Below are positions 57,855 to 64,000 of a stretch of DNA of 64,000 bases, in pieces. The notes under the pieces were generated by a model that was not told the origin of the DNA, made no database searches, and was given only the letters and a program-made list of their open reading frames with translations. The first letter of the stretch is position 1. The number at the start of each line of letters is the position of its first letter. Made by a program: the position numbers and the translations under genes. Origin of the DNA: Xanthobacteraceae bacterium (lineage in GTDB: Bacteria > Pseudomonadota > Alphaproteobacteria > Rhizobiales > Xanthobacteraceae); assembly GCA_031291445.1 (NCBI GenBank), contig JARLJA010000149.1, forward strand, positions 1 through 64,000, given 5' to 3'.

Positions 57855-58232
57855 GTGATGTCGTCGTTGCGAAAAATGCGTCTGGGTCGGTGGGCCGTCA
57901 TTGCTGCGGCCTACGCGCTTTTGCTCAACGTCACGCTGTCCGGCACGCTGCTGGCGTCAATTTCGCCTCTCGATGCCGATCCGCTCCACCAGCTCTGCCT
58001 CAACGCCACGGTCGCCGTCGACGGCCAGGCGGACCACGACAAGGCGCACCTTCGCGTCGTCCCCTGTCAGTTCTGCCTGAGCCATAACGCCGCCTTCATC
58101 GCGCCGGCGGCGCCGGCCCTGCCGGCCTCGATCCGTGTCGGCGTGGCGTCGGATCCGGTGGTCCATACGACGTTCCTGGTCTGCGGCATCGTCCGCGACT
58201 GCCAGCCCCGAGGCCCTCCCTCCTTCGTTTGA
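57855..58232 (+). CDS. DUF2946-like small membrane/secreted protein
   Basis: N-terminal TM segment; CQFCLSHNAAF; immediately upstream of a TonB-dependent receptor. Confidence 0.6.
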   Translation: MMSSLRKMRLGRWAVIAAAYALLLNVTLSGTLLASISPLDADPLHQLCLNATVAVDGQADHDKAHLRVVPCQFCLSHNAAFIAPAAPALPASIRVGVASDPVVHTTFLVCGIVRDCQPRGPPSFV

Positions 58233-58390
58233 CGCAGCACGTCGCGTGCACGCGCTCGTTTCCGGTTCGCCACCGCGCGCGCCGATGAGCGGCTTTGCGT
58301 GTCGTTCGCCTCCCGCCGGCTTTGCCGGCGCGCGGGCCGTCGACACCCCGGGGGCGGACAACGCCTCGCGTTCAAACGTTCGAGACAACC

Positions 58391-60691
58391 ATGCCAAGGA
58401 CAACCATACCCAATCGCCGACCCGGCTTCGGCCGATTTCTCCTCACCGCAACCACGGCGCTGTCGCCGGCCCTCGTTCTCGGGGCGGCCGTCCTGGCCGC
58501 GACCCCAGCCCATGCGCAAACGGCGCAGAACGTTCCAACGGTCCGGGTCGCTTCGCCCGACCAGAAACGCAAGCCCAAGCACCGTTCGGCGAACAGCTCC
58601 CAGCCAAGCCGCGCGCAGCCGGCGAGCGCGCCAGCGCCGAAACCGGACCGAGCGCCAGCGCCGGCGCCGGGCGCCACGATCAGCGGCCAGCAGGCGTTCT
58701 CGGCAAGCCTCAGAACCAGCGATTCGGCGTCGCTGGTCAGCGGGCTACCCGGCGGTGCGGCGTGGGGCGCCGGCGGCGTGTCGAGCCTTCCGGCGTTCAA
58801 TGGCTTCGCCGCGGACCGCAACCAGGTGGCCATCAACGGCATGCTGGTCAGTCCGGCCTGTCCGAACCAGATGAATCCGCCGTTGTCGTTCGTCAATCCG
58901 GCGATGATCTCCAGCATGAAGGCCTATATCGGTGTCGCGCCTGTGAGCGTAGGCGGCGACTACACCGGCGCCAGGGTCGACGTCACCACCGCGCCGCCGG
59001 CCTTCTCGCCGGGCACCGATTTCGTCACCAGCGTGCTGGTGTCAGGGTTCTACCGCAGCAACAGCAACGCCTACGGGGTCGACGCCACCGCCACCATGGC
59101 CAATCGCGACACCAGCGTCACCTATACGGGCGGCTGGGTACATGCCGGCGACTACAAGGCCGCCGACGGCAGCACGGTGAAGTCGACGCTCTACGAGAGC
59201 CAGAATCACGCGCTGAGCATTTCCAAGGAGAGCTTCGGCAACCTGTTCACGGTCCAGGTCGGCGGCCAGTTCATCCCGTACCAGGGTTACGTCAACCAGT
59301 ACATGGACATGACCTACAACCGGGGCATGTACGTCAACGGCCGCTACGAGGGCCAGTTCGACTGGGGCAAGTTCGAGGCCTCGGCCTACTATCACGAGAT
59401 CCGCCACACCATGGGCTTCCTCGAACCGGACAAGACCGGCGACATGCCGATGGACACCAAGGGCACGGATGCCGGCTATTCGCTGAAGGCGACCGTCGTG
59501 GCCTCGCCGCACGATCTCGTCCGCATCGGCAACGAGTTCTACGCCAACCACCTCGACGACTGGTGGGGCCCCATTTCCGGATCGATGATGATGGGCCCGA
59601 ACACCTTCATCAACATCAACGGCGGCCAGCGCGACCGGCTCGGCACCTTCGTCGAATGGGAGCGTCACTGGACGCGGGAGTGGACGACGATCGTCGGCCT
59701 GCGCGCCGACGTCGTCTGGATGAACACCGGCAATGTCCAGGGCTACAATGCCATGATGTACGGTGCCGATGCCGCCGTCTTCAATGCTCTCGGTCACGCC
59801 AAGACCGACGTCAATCTCGACGGTTCGGCGCTGACCCGCTACGAGCCCGACGCCGGCAGCAGCTTCGAACTCGGCTATTCCCACAAGACGCGCTCGCCCA
59901 GCCTCTATGAGCGCTATGCGTGGTCGACCAGCGCCATGGCCATGAGCATGATCGGCTGGTTCGGCGACGGCAACGGCTACGTCGGCAACCTCGACCTGAA
60001 GCCGGAAAAGGCCAACACGGTCAGCTTCACGGCGGGCTGGCACGACCCGGCGCAGAAGGTCTGGGACCTCAAGATCACGCCCTACTATTCCTACGTCCAG
60101 GACTACATCGACGTCGATCGCTGCTTCACCACCGCGGCCTCGAGCACCTGCGGGCTCGCCAACCTCACCGCCCAGTCGGGCTTCGTCAATCTGCGCTTCG
60201 CCAACCACGACGCTCAGCTCTATGGCGTCAACCTGGTCAGCCAGCTGGCATTGTGGGACAATACGCAGAGCGGGCGCGGCGTGTTCCGGGCGACCCTCAA
60301 CTACGTCCGCGGCGAGCGAACCGACGGCGTCGACCTCTATCACATGATGCCGATCAACGGAAAGCTGGCGCTCGATCACACGCTCGATCACTGGACCAAC
60401 AGCATCGAGCTGCAACTGGTCGGCGCCAAGGACGACGTCAGCCAGGTCCACAACGAGTTGACCACGCCCGCCTACGCCCTGGTCAATCTGCGGACCGGCT
60501 ACCAGTGGCAGAACGCGCGGTTCGACTTCGGCATCGATAACCTGCTCAACAAATACTACTACCTGCCGCTCGGTGGCGCGGATCTGGTCGATCACACCAT
60601 GGTGTCGATGATGGGCTCCTCGCCGATGTACGGCTTCAACGTGGCCGGCCCTGGCCGCTCCTACAACACGCGCCTCTCGCTGCAGTTCTAG
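58391..60691 (+). CDS. TonB-dependent receptor
   Basis: Signal peptide; beta-barrel aromatic repeats; C-terminal ..GRSYNTRLSLQF. Confidence 0.88.
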   Translation: MPRTTIPNRRPGFGRFLLTATTALSPALVLGAAVLAATPAHAQTAQNVPTVRVASPDQKRKPKHRSANSSQPSRAQPASAPAPKPDRAPAPAPGATISGQQAFSASLRTSDSASLVSGLPGGAAWGAGGVSSLPAFNGFAADRNQVAINGMLVSPACPNQMNPPLSFVNPAMISSMKAYIGVAPVSVGGDYTGARVDVTTAPPAFSPGTDFVTSVLVSGFYRSNSNAYGVDATATMANRDTSVTYTGGWVHAGDYKAADGSTVKSTLYESQNHALSISKESFGNLFTVQVGGQFIPYQGYVNQYMDMTYNRGMYVNGRYEGQFDWGKFEASAYYHEIRHTMGFLEPDKTGDMPMDTKGTDAGYSLKATVVASPHDLVRIGNEFYANHLDDWWGPISGSMMMGPNTFININGGQRDRLGTFVEWERHWTREWTTIVGLRADVVWMNTGNVQGYNAMMYGADAAVFNALGHAKTDVNLDGSALTRYEPDAGSSFELGYSHKTRSPSLYERYAWSTSAMAMSMIGWFGDGNGYVGNLDLKPEKANTVSFTAGWHDPAQKVWDLKITPYYSYVQDYIDVDRCFTTAASSTCGLANLTAQSGFVNLRFANHDAQLYGVNLVSQLALWDNTQSGRGVFRATLNYVRGERTDGVDLYHMMPINGKLALDHTLDHWTNSIELQLVGAKDDVSQVHNELTTPAYALVNLRTGYQWQNARFDFGIDNLLNKYYYLPLGGADLVDHTMVSMMGSSPMYGFNVAGPGRSYNTRLSLQF

Positions 60692-60882: not shown

Positions 60883-61311
60883 TTACTTGCGATGCGGCTC
60901 CTTCTTGCCGATCTCGGTCGGAATCATCACCAGGCGCCCGTAGCGGACGCCGCGCTCGGCGATGATGTGTTCGGCAAAGTGCTGGACTTCGCCGCTCGCG
61001 CCTTTCAGCGCGGTCACCTCCATGCAGTTGTCGTCGTCGAGATGGACGTGAAGGGTGGCGAGCGACAGGTCATGATGCCCGTGATAGTTCTGCACCAGGC
61101 GCCGCGACAGGTCGCGCGCCGCGTGATCGTAGACGTAGACCAGCGCGGCGACGCAGTCGCCGGACTTTCCGATCTTCTGGGCGGCCTGCTGCATGCCGGC
61201 GCGGGCGAAGTCGCGGACGGCCTCGGAGCGGTTCTGGTAGCCGTATTCGACCATCATGCGGTCGAGTTCTTCCATCAGATCGTCATCGAGGGTGATCGTG
61301 ATGCGCTGCAC
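60883..61311 (-). CDS. nikR: Nickel-responsive transcriptional regulator NikR, GTG start
   Basis: VQRITITLDDDLMEELDRMMVEYGYQNRSEAVRDFAR; metal-site region HGHHDLSLATLHVHLDDDNCMEV. Confidence 0.95.
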   Translation of the reverse strand: MQRITITLDDDLMEELDRMMVEYGYQNRSEAVRDFARAGMQQAAQKIGKSGDCVAALVYVYDHAARDLSRRLVQNYHGHHDLSLATLHVHLDDDNCMEVTALKGASGEVQHFAEHIIAERGVRYGRLVMIPTEIGKKEPHRK

Positions 61312-61399
61312 TTGGTTTCCCCGTGATCGTGTTGAATCTGATGAAGTCCGGAATCTTCGCATTCCGCAAACCGGAAATCAATTCATGGGGCTGGCGGCG

Positions 61400-63745
61400 T
61401 CAGAATGATCCCGCCAGCGTCAGCCTGACGGTGAAGGGCTCGACCGGATGCAGCACCGAGTCCATGACGCCGTTCTGGCACACGGCGGCCGGCGCGGTCT
61501 GGACCGGATAGCACAGGCCGTAGAGGCTGTCGGTCTTGATCAGCGAACCATAGGCGTAAGTGATCTGGTTGGCCCGGGTGTCGAGCAGGTTGAGCACGTC
61601 GAGCTGGATCCGCCAGCCGTCGTCGAAGCGGTAGCCCGCGCGGCCATTGAAGATGCTGGTCGGCGGCGAGCGAAACGCATTGTCCTCGGTGAGCGGGCTC
61701 GACGCCAGGTAGCGCCAGCGCAAGGCGCCGAACCAGCCGGTCTTCTCCCCGATCGTGATGCCGGCCGAGGCCACCGTGGCGGGCGCGTTGGGAATGTAGT
61801 TGCCCGGCGCGTTGCCGAACTGGGCCTGCGGGTAACCGGCAAGCGAGGCGTAGAGCGCGGCCTGGGCGCCGTCGTACCCGATGAAGCGGGCGTGGGTCAG
61901 GGCGAGATCGGCATCGAGGTCGAGCCAGGAGAGCGGACGGTAGCGGTTGGTCCATTCGACCCCGTAGCGCTGGCTGGGCAGGCTCGCCGAGGTGTCGCCG
62001 GCGTCGCCGTTGAATACGATCTCCGAGGCCTGACGCAGAACGAAAAGGCTGACCGACGACTCGAGGCCAGGGACGACCTTGGTGCGGACCCCGACCTCGG
62101 CGCCTTTGGTTCGCACCAGCAGCGGCGACGCGGAGAGCTTTGCAGCCGGATCGGTGGGCTCCTCGGTGATGGTGACGCCGCGCGCGTCGTTGCTGTGCAT
62201 GCCCATGCCGGCGCCGAAGAACAGTTCGGTCTTGTCGAACGGTCCCACCACCATGCTGAACTTCGGACTGCCGATCGCCGCGCTGGCGCGTCCGGAATTG
62301 GCGGCGTCGAACAGGGAATCGACGCGTGCGGCATAGTAGTCGCCGCGCCAGCCCACCGTGGTGTTGAGCCAGCCGGTCCAGCGCACCGTGTTCTGGGCGT
62401 AGACGCCGACGCTGCCCTCGCCGACCCTGTCGCTGCGTACGTTGGCGAGAAAGCTGCGCTGGTAGGTGTCGGTCAGGGACAGGTTGATGTCGTCGTAGCG
62501 GGTCTGGATGCCGAACGTGGTCTGCATCGGCCGGCCGGCCAGATCCCCGTTCAGGGTTCGCGACGCGTTGGCGCCGGTCACGATACGGTCGTCGTGCTGG
62601 TGGAACTGGTCGCCGAGGGTCGGATCGGTGAGGAAATAGGTGAAGTTGTTATAGAGGTCGAGCACGCTCCTGACGACGAAGGCGTTGGCCTTCCAAGATC
62701 CGGCGTCGTCGGTCGCGGCGGCGCGCGCCGACAGCGCGAAGCGGCTGGTGTTGCCGCCGTCGGTCGGATCCTCCGCTCCGTAAAGTCCGAGCTGTCCCGA
62801 CGTGAGGGCGCGCTGCGGCACCTGGTCGGTCGAATTCCAGGTGTTCGAATAGGCCATGCCGGTGATGGAGACGCCGTCCAGCGCCGTGCCCTGGGTGTAG
62901 CGCATCAGGCCGTTCACCTTGCGCATATCGTCGGGATTGACCCACGGTCCGCTGTAGGTGCCGGCCTCGCCGGCGATCAGCAGCGTACCGTCGCCGGCCT
63001 TGAACGAGTCCATGCCGAACAATCTCCGATAGCCGAAACCGCCGGCGGTGACCTGGGCGATGCCCTTTGGGACGCCGTCGATGAGGCCGATATGCAGATT
63101 GCCGGCTGAGCCGAAGTCGCCTTCGTCGGCGAAATACGGCCCCTTGCGGACGTCGAGCGAGTTGATCGTTTCCGGCATCAGCCAGTTGAGATCGGAGTAA
63201 CCCTGGCCGTGGGCGTGGGTGCGCATGTTGATCGGCACGTCGTCGACCCAGATCGCCATGTCGGTGCCGTGATCGAGATTGTAGCCGCGCAGGAAATACT
63301 GGTTGGCTTTGCCTTCGCCGCTGTGCTGCGTCACGATCAGCCCCGGCGCGGCCTCCAGGATTTCACCCGGGCGCGTCACCGGGCGCGCATTCAACTCGTC
63401 GCCGGTCACCGTGACCTGGCTCGCCATGGCCGGCGCCGTGGCGGGTCCCGAGCCGGTGTTGGGAGCGCCCGACGGCGGCGCCGCGGGCAGGGCCGGAGCA
63501 TCAGAACTCGCCAGACCGGCCGCGGCCGGGTTGCGCGCATCGCGTCTGGGCGGCCGGCGCGATTTCGGCGATGGCTGCCGCATCTCAACGGCAATGGGCG
63601 GGAGATCGGTCGATCTGGCCGATGGGCTTGCCGGCGTGGCTTCGGCGGCCGTTGCCGTCGACGGGGTCTGCGCGCGCGCCGCGGCCTGCGACGCCGTCGC
63701 GAGCACCGTCATCACCGCCAGCCTGCGCACGCGCGCCAACCTCAT
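61400..63745 (-). CDS. TonB-dependent receptor, candidate nickel/metal-complex receptor
   Basis: Plug domain PGEILEAAPGLIVTQHSGEGKANQYFLRGYNLDHGTDMAIWVDDVPINMRTHAHGQGYSDLNWLMPE; C-terminal VRLTLAGSF. Confidence 0.9.
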   Translation of the reverse strand: MRLARVRRLAVMTVLATASQAAARAQTPSTATAAEATPASPSARSTDLPPIAVEMRQPSPKSRRPPRRDARNPAAAGLASSDAPALPAAPPSGAPNTGSGPATAPAMASQVTVTGDELNARPVTRPGEILEAAPGLIVTQHSGEGKANQYFLRGYNLDHGTDMAIWVDDVPINMRTHAHGQGYSDLNWLMPETINSLDVRKGPYFADEGDFGSAGNLHIGLIDGVPKGIAQVTAGGFGYRRLFGMDSFKAGDGTLLIAGEAGTYSGPWVNPDDMRKVNGLMRYTQGTALDGVSITGMAYSNTWNSTDQVPQRALTSGQLGLYGAEDPTDGGNTSRFALSARAAATDDAGSWKANAFVVRSVLDLYNNFTYFLTDPTLGDQFHQHDDRIVTGANASRTLNGDLAGRPMQTTFGIQTRYDDINLSLTDTYQRSFLANVRSDRVGEGSVGVYAQNTVRWTGWLNTTVGWRGDYYAARVDSLFDAANSGRASAAIGSPKFSMVVGPFDKTELFFGAGMGMHSNDARGVTITEEPTDPAAKLSASPLLVRTKGAEVGVRTKVVPGLESSVSLFVLRQASEIVFNGDAGDTSASLPSQRYGVEWTNRYRPLSWLDLDADLALTHARFIGYDGAQAALYASLAGYPQAQFGNAPGNYIPNAPATVASAGITIGEKTGWFGALRWRYLASSPLTEDNAFRSPPTSIFNGRAGYRFDDGWRIQLDVLNLLDTRANQITYAYGSLIKTDSLYGLCYPVQTAPAAVCQNGVMDSVLHPVEPFTVRLTLAGSF

Positions 63746-63869
63746 GCAGCCCCCACCGCATCGACGGAGGCGAAACGCAAGACCCGAAATCCCGCTTGGC
63801 CGCGAGGCCGCTCACGATCGGAGGACTATACCCGCTGTCGTCGTCGGGCTCGAGCTAACGCCGGGGGCA

Positions 63870-63897
63870 GTATGATGTCAATGAAAGATCGTCATAC
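63870..63897. promoter_or_regulatory. NikR operator
   Basis: GTATGA-tgtcaatgaaagatcg-TCATAC: exact match to the E. coli GTATGA-N16-TCATAC consensus, ~125 bp upstream of the minus-strand receptor start. Confidence 0.9.
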
Positions 63898-64000
63898 TCA
63901 TTCGTCGCACGCGACGGGTGATCCCCGCAGATGCCGCATCCGGCATCGGCTGCCCGGTATCGGCCTACAGCGATTTGTCCGGCGCCGCAGGCAGGAAACG

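Follow-up and report, generated by a model that had tools for sequence, protein, structure and literature searches.

In the literature surveyed, nickel uptake driven by TonB has been tested mainly in Helicobacter and is elsewhere a matter of prediction. In H. pylori, FrpB4 and FecA3 are NikR-repressed TonB-dependent nickel receptors, and by description the receptor considered here is like them; the H. pylori NikR dyad, TRTTA/TAWTA, is unlike the operator found at our locus (PMC5385501). NikR of E. coli recognizes the consensus GTATGA-N16-TCATAC and holds nickel through H76, H87, H89, and C95 (PMC7055735). Its nikABCDE system shares the operator, the NikR ligands, and the beta-strand residues with our locus, but its target is an inner-membrane ABC importer, whereas the target here would be an outer-membrane receptor. 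Two further receptors, Bll6948 of Bradyrhizobium diazoefficiens and pHCG3_081 of Afipia carboxidovorans (on pHCG3), are predicted to take up nickel or nickel/cobalt (PMC7142613, PMC3400609, PMC11247825). Our literature search found no demonstration of nickel transport by receptors of this type. Rodionov and colleagues reportedly predicted Bll6948 as a nickel receptor in 2006, and one later paper counts it among the TonB-dependent transporters functioning with Ni(II).

The window analyzed here, a stretch of 64,000 nucleotides from a Bradyrhizobium-like soil bacterium, carries a NikR-type operator, a TonB-dependent receptor gene, and nikR (Table 1). Very probably, these form a nickel-repressed outer-membrane nickel import unit that works with a NiCoT permease as its partner. 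The unit adds a member to a kind of nickel uptake already known, if mainly from predictions, and by sequence family, NikR site, and linkage to nickel genes the receptor is of the Bll6948/pHCG3_081 type. For example, the nikR-adjacent receptor of pHCG3 is 69% identical to that of the window, and nikR and receptor there follow hyp/hox genes; RS17450 is likely to be pHCG3_081. In B. diazoefficiens strains, two loci, L040 (which presumably carries the Bll6948 orthologue) and L054, have the order operator–NiCoT–receptor. The window departs from this type in that nikR follows the receptor in the same orientation and is not divergent from it, in the separate location of NiCoT, and in having cbbR next to the unit. 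The Cupriavidus necator plasmid pHG1 encodes a 46% identical receptor, with a HoxN/HupN/NixA-family permease gene some 4.4 kb away, and no site of the GTATGA-N16-TCATAC consensus was present within the 14 kb examined. With a receptor, sensor, operator, permease, hydrogenase, and the Calvin cycle brought together, the locus and its relatives offer a clean test case, in non-pathogenic alphaproteobacteria for which growth on hydrogen is probable.

Table 1. Features of the locus and of the second receptor cluster in the same genome (window positions unless a contig is named).
Feature	Position	Strand	Description
nikR, nickel-responsive repressor	60883..61311	-	142 aa, GTG start; longest ORF begins at 61362
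TonB-dependent outer-membrane receptor	61400..63745	-	781 aa, signal peptide (assigned by eye); predicted nickel-complex importer
Candidate -10, TAGCTC (weak)	63852..63857	-	18-base spacer; likened to TAGCGT of relatives
Predicted NikR operator	63870..63897	.	GTATGATGTCAATGAAAGATCGTCATAC; 12/12 arm bases of the E. coli consensus
Candidate -35, TTGACA	63876..63881	-	within the operator spacer, pointing to the receptor
cbbR-like LysR regulator gene, 3' end	63965..64000	-	upstream of the receptor, same strand
Second-receptor cluster	G000:C64:40329-54659		locus L136

The repressor, its operator, and the receptor promoter

The genome contains a single gene with a NikR_C domain, the nikR of the window. 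Its RHH and NikR_C domains exceed curated cut-offs, it scores 198.5 bits against TIGR02793 (cut-off 175.45), and it aligns over its full length to E. coli NikR (1q5v, E 2.5e-43). The square-planar nickel ligands (4/4) and the beta-strand DNA-contact residues R3, T5, and T7 are conserved in this protein and in every relative aligned. By domains and ligands it is a bona fide NikR, and DNA binding can be predicted for it; in both the NikR and the receptor trees the placement of the window is poorly resolved. GTG 61311 is more likely to be the start codon than ATG 61362, as the protein then begins MQRITITLDDD and matches E. coli NikR in alignment from its first residue onward, and GGGGAAACC stands upstream of this codon. 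With the GTG start, 88 bases separate the receptor stop from nikR, in keeping with the original prediction that nikR lies directly downstream of the receptor in the same orientation. No credible terminator was found between the two genes, the lone terminator-like match of the region lying within the receptor gene at chance level, and they are presumably co-transcribed.

A perfect NikR palindrome upstream of the minus-strand receptor had also been claimed. A scan of the window returned the exact GTATGA-N16-TCATAC palindrome, from which the receptor begins 124 bp downstream, and none of 100 dinucleotide shuffles of the window held such a palindrome. The genome (6,306,082 bases) holds no second site, and so no further NikR target, at one mismatch or fewer, and about 0.05 exact sites would be expected from base composition. 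Sites with two mismatches number at least 10 per strand, the same as in the control, and among these only a box before a NiCoT gene is credited, on its position and conservation. The palindrome fits the E. coli consensus and neither the H. pylori dyad nor the delta-proteobacterial consensus, and its place upstream of a putative nickel-uptake gene leads us to predict that it is a NikR operator.

The operator may also contain part of the promoter. While a sigma-70 consensus scan of the region returned no promoter and no clear -10, the candidate -35 lies in the spacer, and the candidate -10 was named by comparison with TAGCGT, found with a 17-base spacer in several relatives. Among the 60 exact sites in relatives described below, the spacer has a TTGA pointing toward the receptor in 42 cases and away from it in three; for TTGAC, the counts are 21 and 0. 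This bias suggests a -35 element inside the operator, so that bound NikR would block polymerase.

Conservation in relatives and the inner-membrane partner

Searching for the receptor over 84,980 species gave 80 loci at 56–77% identity, mostly from Bradyrhizobium and its kin. In 1.32 Mb of sequence from these loci there are 60 exact sites, all of them (60/60) no more than 1.7 kb upstream of the receptor, and the same sequence reversed as a control gave none. When one mismatch is allowed, a site with a variable spacer precedes the receptor or its operon at 70 of the 80 loci. The operator is followed by a NiCoT nickel permease and then the receptor at 39 of them, although these are mostly Bradyrhizobium and not independent, related loci being phylogenetically clustered. 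At 18 loci, nikR lies divergently across the operator from the receptor, and at 13 the operator precedes a receptor without an adjacent nikR. By a strict count, the operator is missing in 10 of the 80 relatives, one of which is truncated. A separate search for the exact operator in 101 genomes found it in 18, with 0 in the backward-read control. Genes for [NiFe] hydrogenase adjoin the locus in L032, L034, L041, L044, L064, L068, L087, and others; the Rhodopseudomonas locus L087 unites nikR, operator, receptor, NiCoT, box, and hydrogenase genes in one uninterrupted stretch. Paraburkholderia p1 carries, in this order, a divergent nikR, a HoxN-type permease, and the receptor; the receptor of Methylomagnum and that of Methylocystis come after nikR. 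Distinctive of the genome studied here are the order receptor then nikR on one strand, which was not seen in the other loci examined, and the location beside cbbR.

The original prediction noted that the window has no nik/cnt ABC or NiCoT permease gene and placed the inner-membrane partner elsewhere. For NiCoT, the absence holds for the whole receptor contig (C66), which carries none of the three NicO-family genes of the genome. A NiCoT gene at C130:87953-88999 (NicO, 327 bits), beside hupSL, matches the expected partner. It starts 24 bases after a NikR-like box, ATATGC-N16-TCATAC (C130:87901-87928), with two mismatches; the chance of a two-mismatch site is about 0.002 per 250 bases. The counterpart of this box in Rhodopseudomonas L087 has one mismatch, while the rest of the intergenic region has diverged. 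In that locus (Rhodopseudomonas sp. Cfx3-05), the NikR-like box with one mismatch, at L087:11137-11164, lies between divergent NiCoT and hydrogenase genes, where it might act on the hydrogenase promoter as well.

The permease and the operator may be neighbors. On contig C66, cbbR and cbb genes lead up to a cbbL that the contig end (71505) cuts off; the end of C130 (91633) carries the other part of a cbbL, followed by cbbS-like, cbbX-like, and cbbE-like genes (all cbb names except cbbL were read by eye from the protein sequences). The genome has no further cbbL pieces, and the contigs therefore probably adjoin, which would place the NiCoT gene about 10 kb from the operator; the cbbL overlap (228 bases) is just 89% identical, so the junction is one that we infer. 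One cbb operon was probably split in the assembly (96% complete, 208 contigs), perhaps because of strain variation.

Taken with the operator conserved at 70 of 80 loci, nikR, NiCoT, and the hydrogenase linkage support what had been proposed, namely nickel-regulated TonB-dependent outer-membrane uptake. When cytoplasmic nickel is ample, Ni-NikR would bind the operator, cover the -35, and shut off the receptor-nikR unit, by which NikR would limit its own synthesis. When nickel is scarce, the receptor would be produced and would carry a nickel complex to the periplasm, powered by TonB-ExbBD, for which the genome holds an exbB-exbD-tonB set on contig C64. The C130 permease, behind its own NikR-like box, would then supply [NiFe] hydrogenase and urease by moving Ni2+ into the cell. 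Nickel users in the genome include hupSL, regulatory-hydrogenase-like genes, and two urease alpha genes.

Alternative readings and the cargo of the receptor

NikR could control the receptor even if the cargo were cobalt, iron, or another chelate, with uptake shut down under nickel excess against mis-import. The substrates of TonB receptors are unreadable from sequence, and literature tables label this receptor family “nickel, cobalt”. The plug and beta-barrel domains are above Pfam cut-offs, every score against curated TonB family HMMs is under its cut-off, and a PDB sequence search gave weak plug-domain matches only. An AlphaFold model (plug and barrel, mean pLDDT 72, pTM 0.75) has as its best PDB folds the PQQ receptor PqqU/YncD, then siderophore, ferric citrate, and OprC copper receptors, a comparison that gives no cargo identification and leaves room for a cargo other than nickel, as does a paralog on C64 that has no NikR site. 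We nevertheless regard such a cargo as unlikely, given the NiCoT operon and [NiFe] hydrogenase proximity in many relatives. No Rfam family, riboswitches included, matched around the receptor, a result on which riboswitch control was rejected and which also speaks against a non-nickel cargo. Given the paralog and the 10 relatives lacking a site, NikR control does not extend to the whole receptor family.

The operator itself could be real but vestigial, a rearrangement having put nikR behind the receptor, and expression could depend mainly on cbbR read-through or on a different signal. The receptor-nikR order is unseen in the other loci examined, a congener (G003) has a nikR remnant and no receptor, and the cbbR-like gene, which extends to about 64897 on the contig and is divergent from the cbb Calvin-cycle genes, lies on the receptor strand and stops 67 bases short of the operator. 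Against this stand all 12 arm bases, which are intact, a directional TTGACA in the spacer, and an intact nikR with all of its ligands, and we hold this reading to be very improbable. Chance, for which nothing but the shortness of the arms can be said, is more remote again: about 0.05 exact sites were expected and one was found, adjoining nikR, and its retention in 70 of 80 relatives at 0–1 mismatch practically refutes a random match.

While nickel import under NikR thus stays the preferred reading, the form of the cargo may be approached through the second receptor of the genome. The paralog (C64:52326-54659), 75% identical to the window receptor, is preceded by exbB, exbD, and tonB. Divergent from exbB is a membrane-fused spermidine-synthase-like gene (NF037959, 64 bits; cut-off 40), and beyond it lie genes for a 2OG-Fe(II) oxygenase, a secreted protein without a Pfam family, a PPIase, and HupE/UreJ. 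No recognizable NikR site was found at this paralog or its cluster. The synthase-like and oxygenase genes, and with them most of the set, also stand beside the receptor in the alphaproteobacterial loci L023, L024, L058, L070, L073, and L079. L024 has an exact NikR operator between the synthase-like gene and the receptor, and L073 and L079 have a one-mismatch NikR box between the synthase-like gene and exbB. On a betaproteobacterial plasmid (Comamonadaceae, CP099604), nikR and the receptor head the set on one strand, followed by two unnamed proteins, the synthase-like gene, PPIase, HupE/UreJ, and the 2OG oxygenase. Our literature search found nothing on a receptor cluster of this composition, and it looks unreported.

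One tentative and rather doubtful extension is that the window receptor, under NikR control, provides the uptake step of a nickel-chelator (nickelophore) pathway not yet described. In such a pathway, a polyamine-type nickel ligand could be made and tailored by the synthase-like enzyme together with the oxygenase, and both receptors would recover it. A periplasmic or envelope role of the cluster in nickel handling is equally open. Uptake of a nicotianamine-like metallophore (staphylopine or pseudopaline) was rejected, as PF03059 is absent and no NAS gene is present in the 96% complete assembly. The conserved histidines H141, H159, H177, H179, H517, and H766 were likewise dropped as nickel ligands, since the same residues occur in the paralog without a NikR site. 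The synthase/oxygenase/HupE cluster is a concrete candidate lead to the actual cargo of the receptor.

Several further observations concern neighboring receptors and congeners. In the region 57855-60691 on the plus strand, the window holds a second TonB-dependent receptor (798 aa), convergent with nikR, whose matches to copper and heme receptor models are below threshold (TIGR01778, 90 bits; cut-off 472); it is possibly a copper receptor. A small Cys-containing protein without a Pfam match (57855-58232) comes before it. A stop within nikR of G001 is most likely only its natural stop. In the congener G003, nikR is a C-terminal remnant (L130:6257-6472) and the receptor is absent from a neighborhood that in the congener G002 is intact for both, an apparent joint loss. 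At L128:4106-7787 in G002, nikR and a TonB receptor of another subfamily (26% identity) diverge from an exact NikR operator between them, and this receptor is predicted to be another NikR-controlled type; a gene for a DUF4198 protein follows this receptor.
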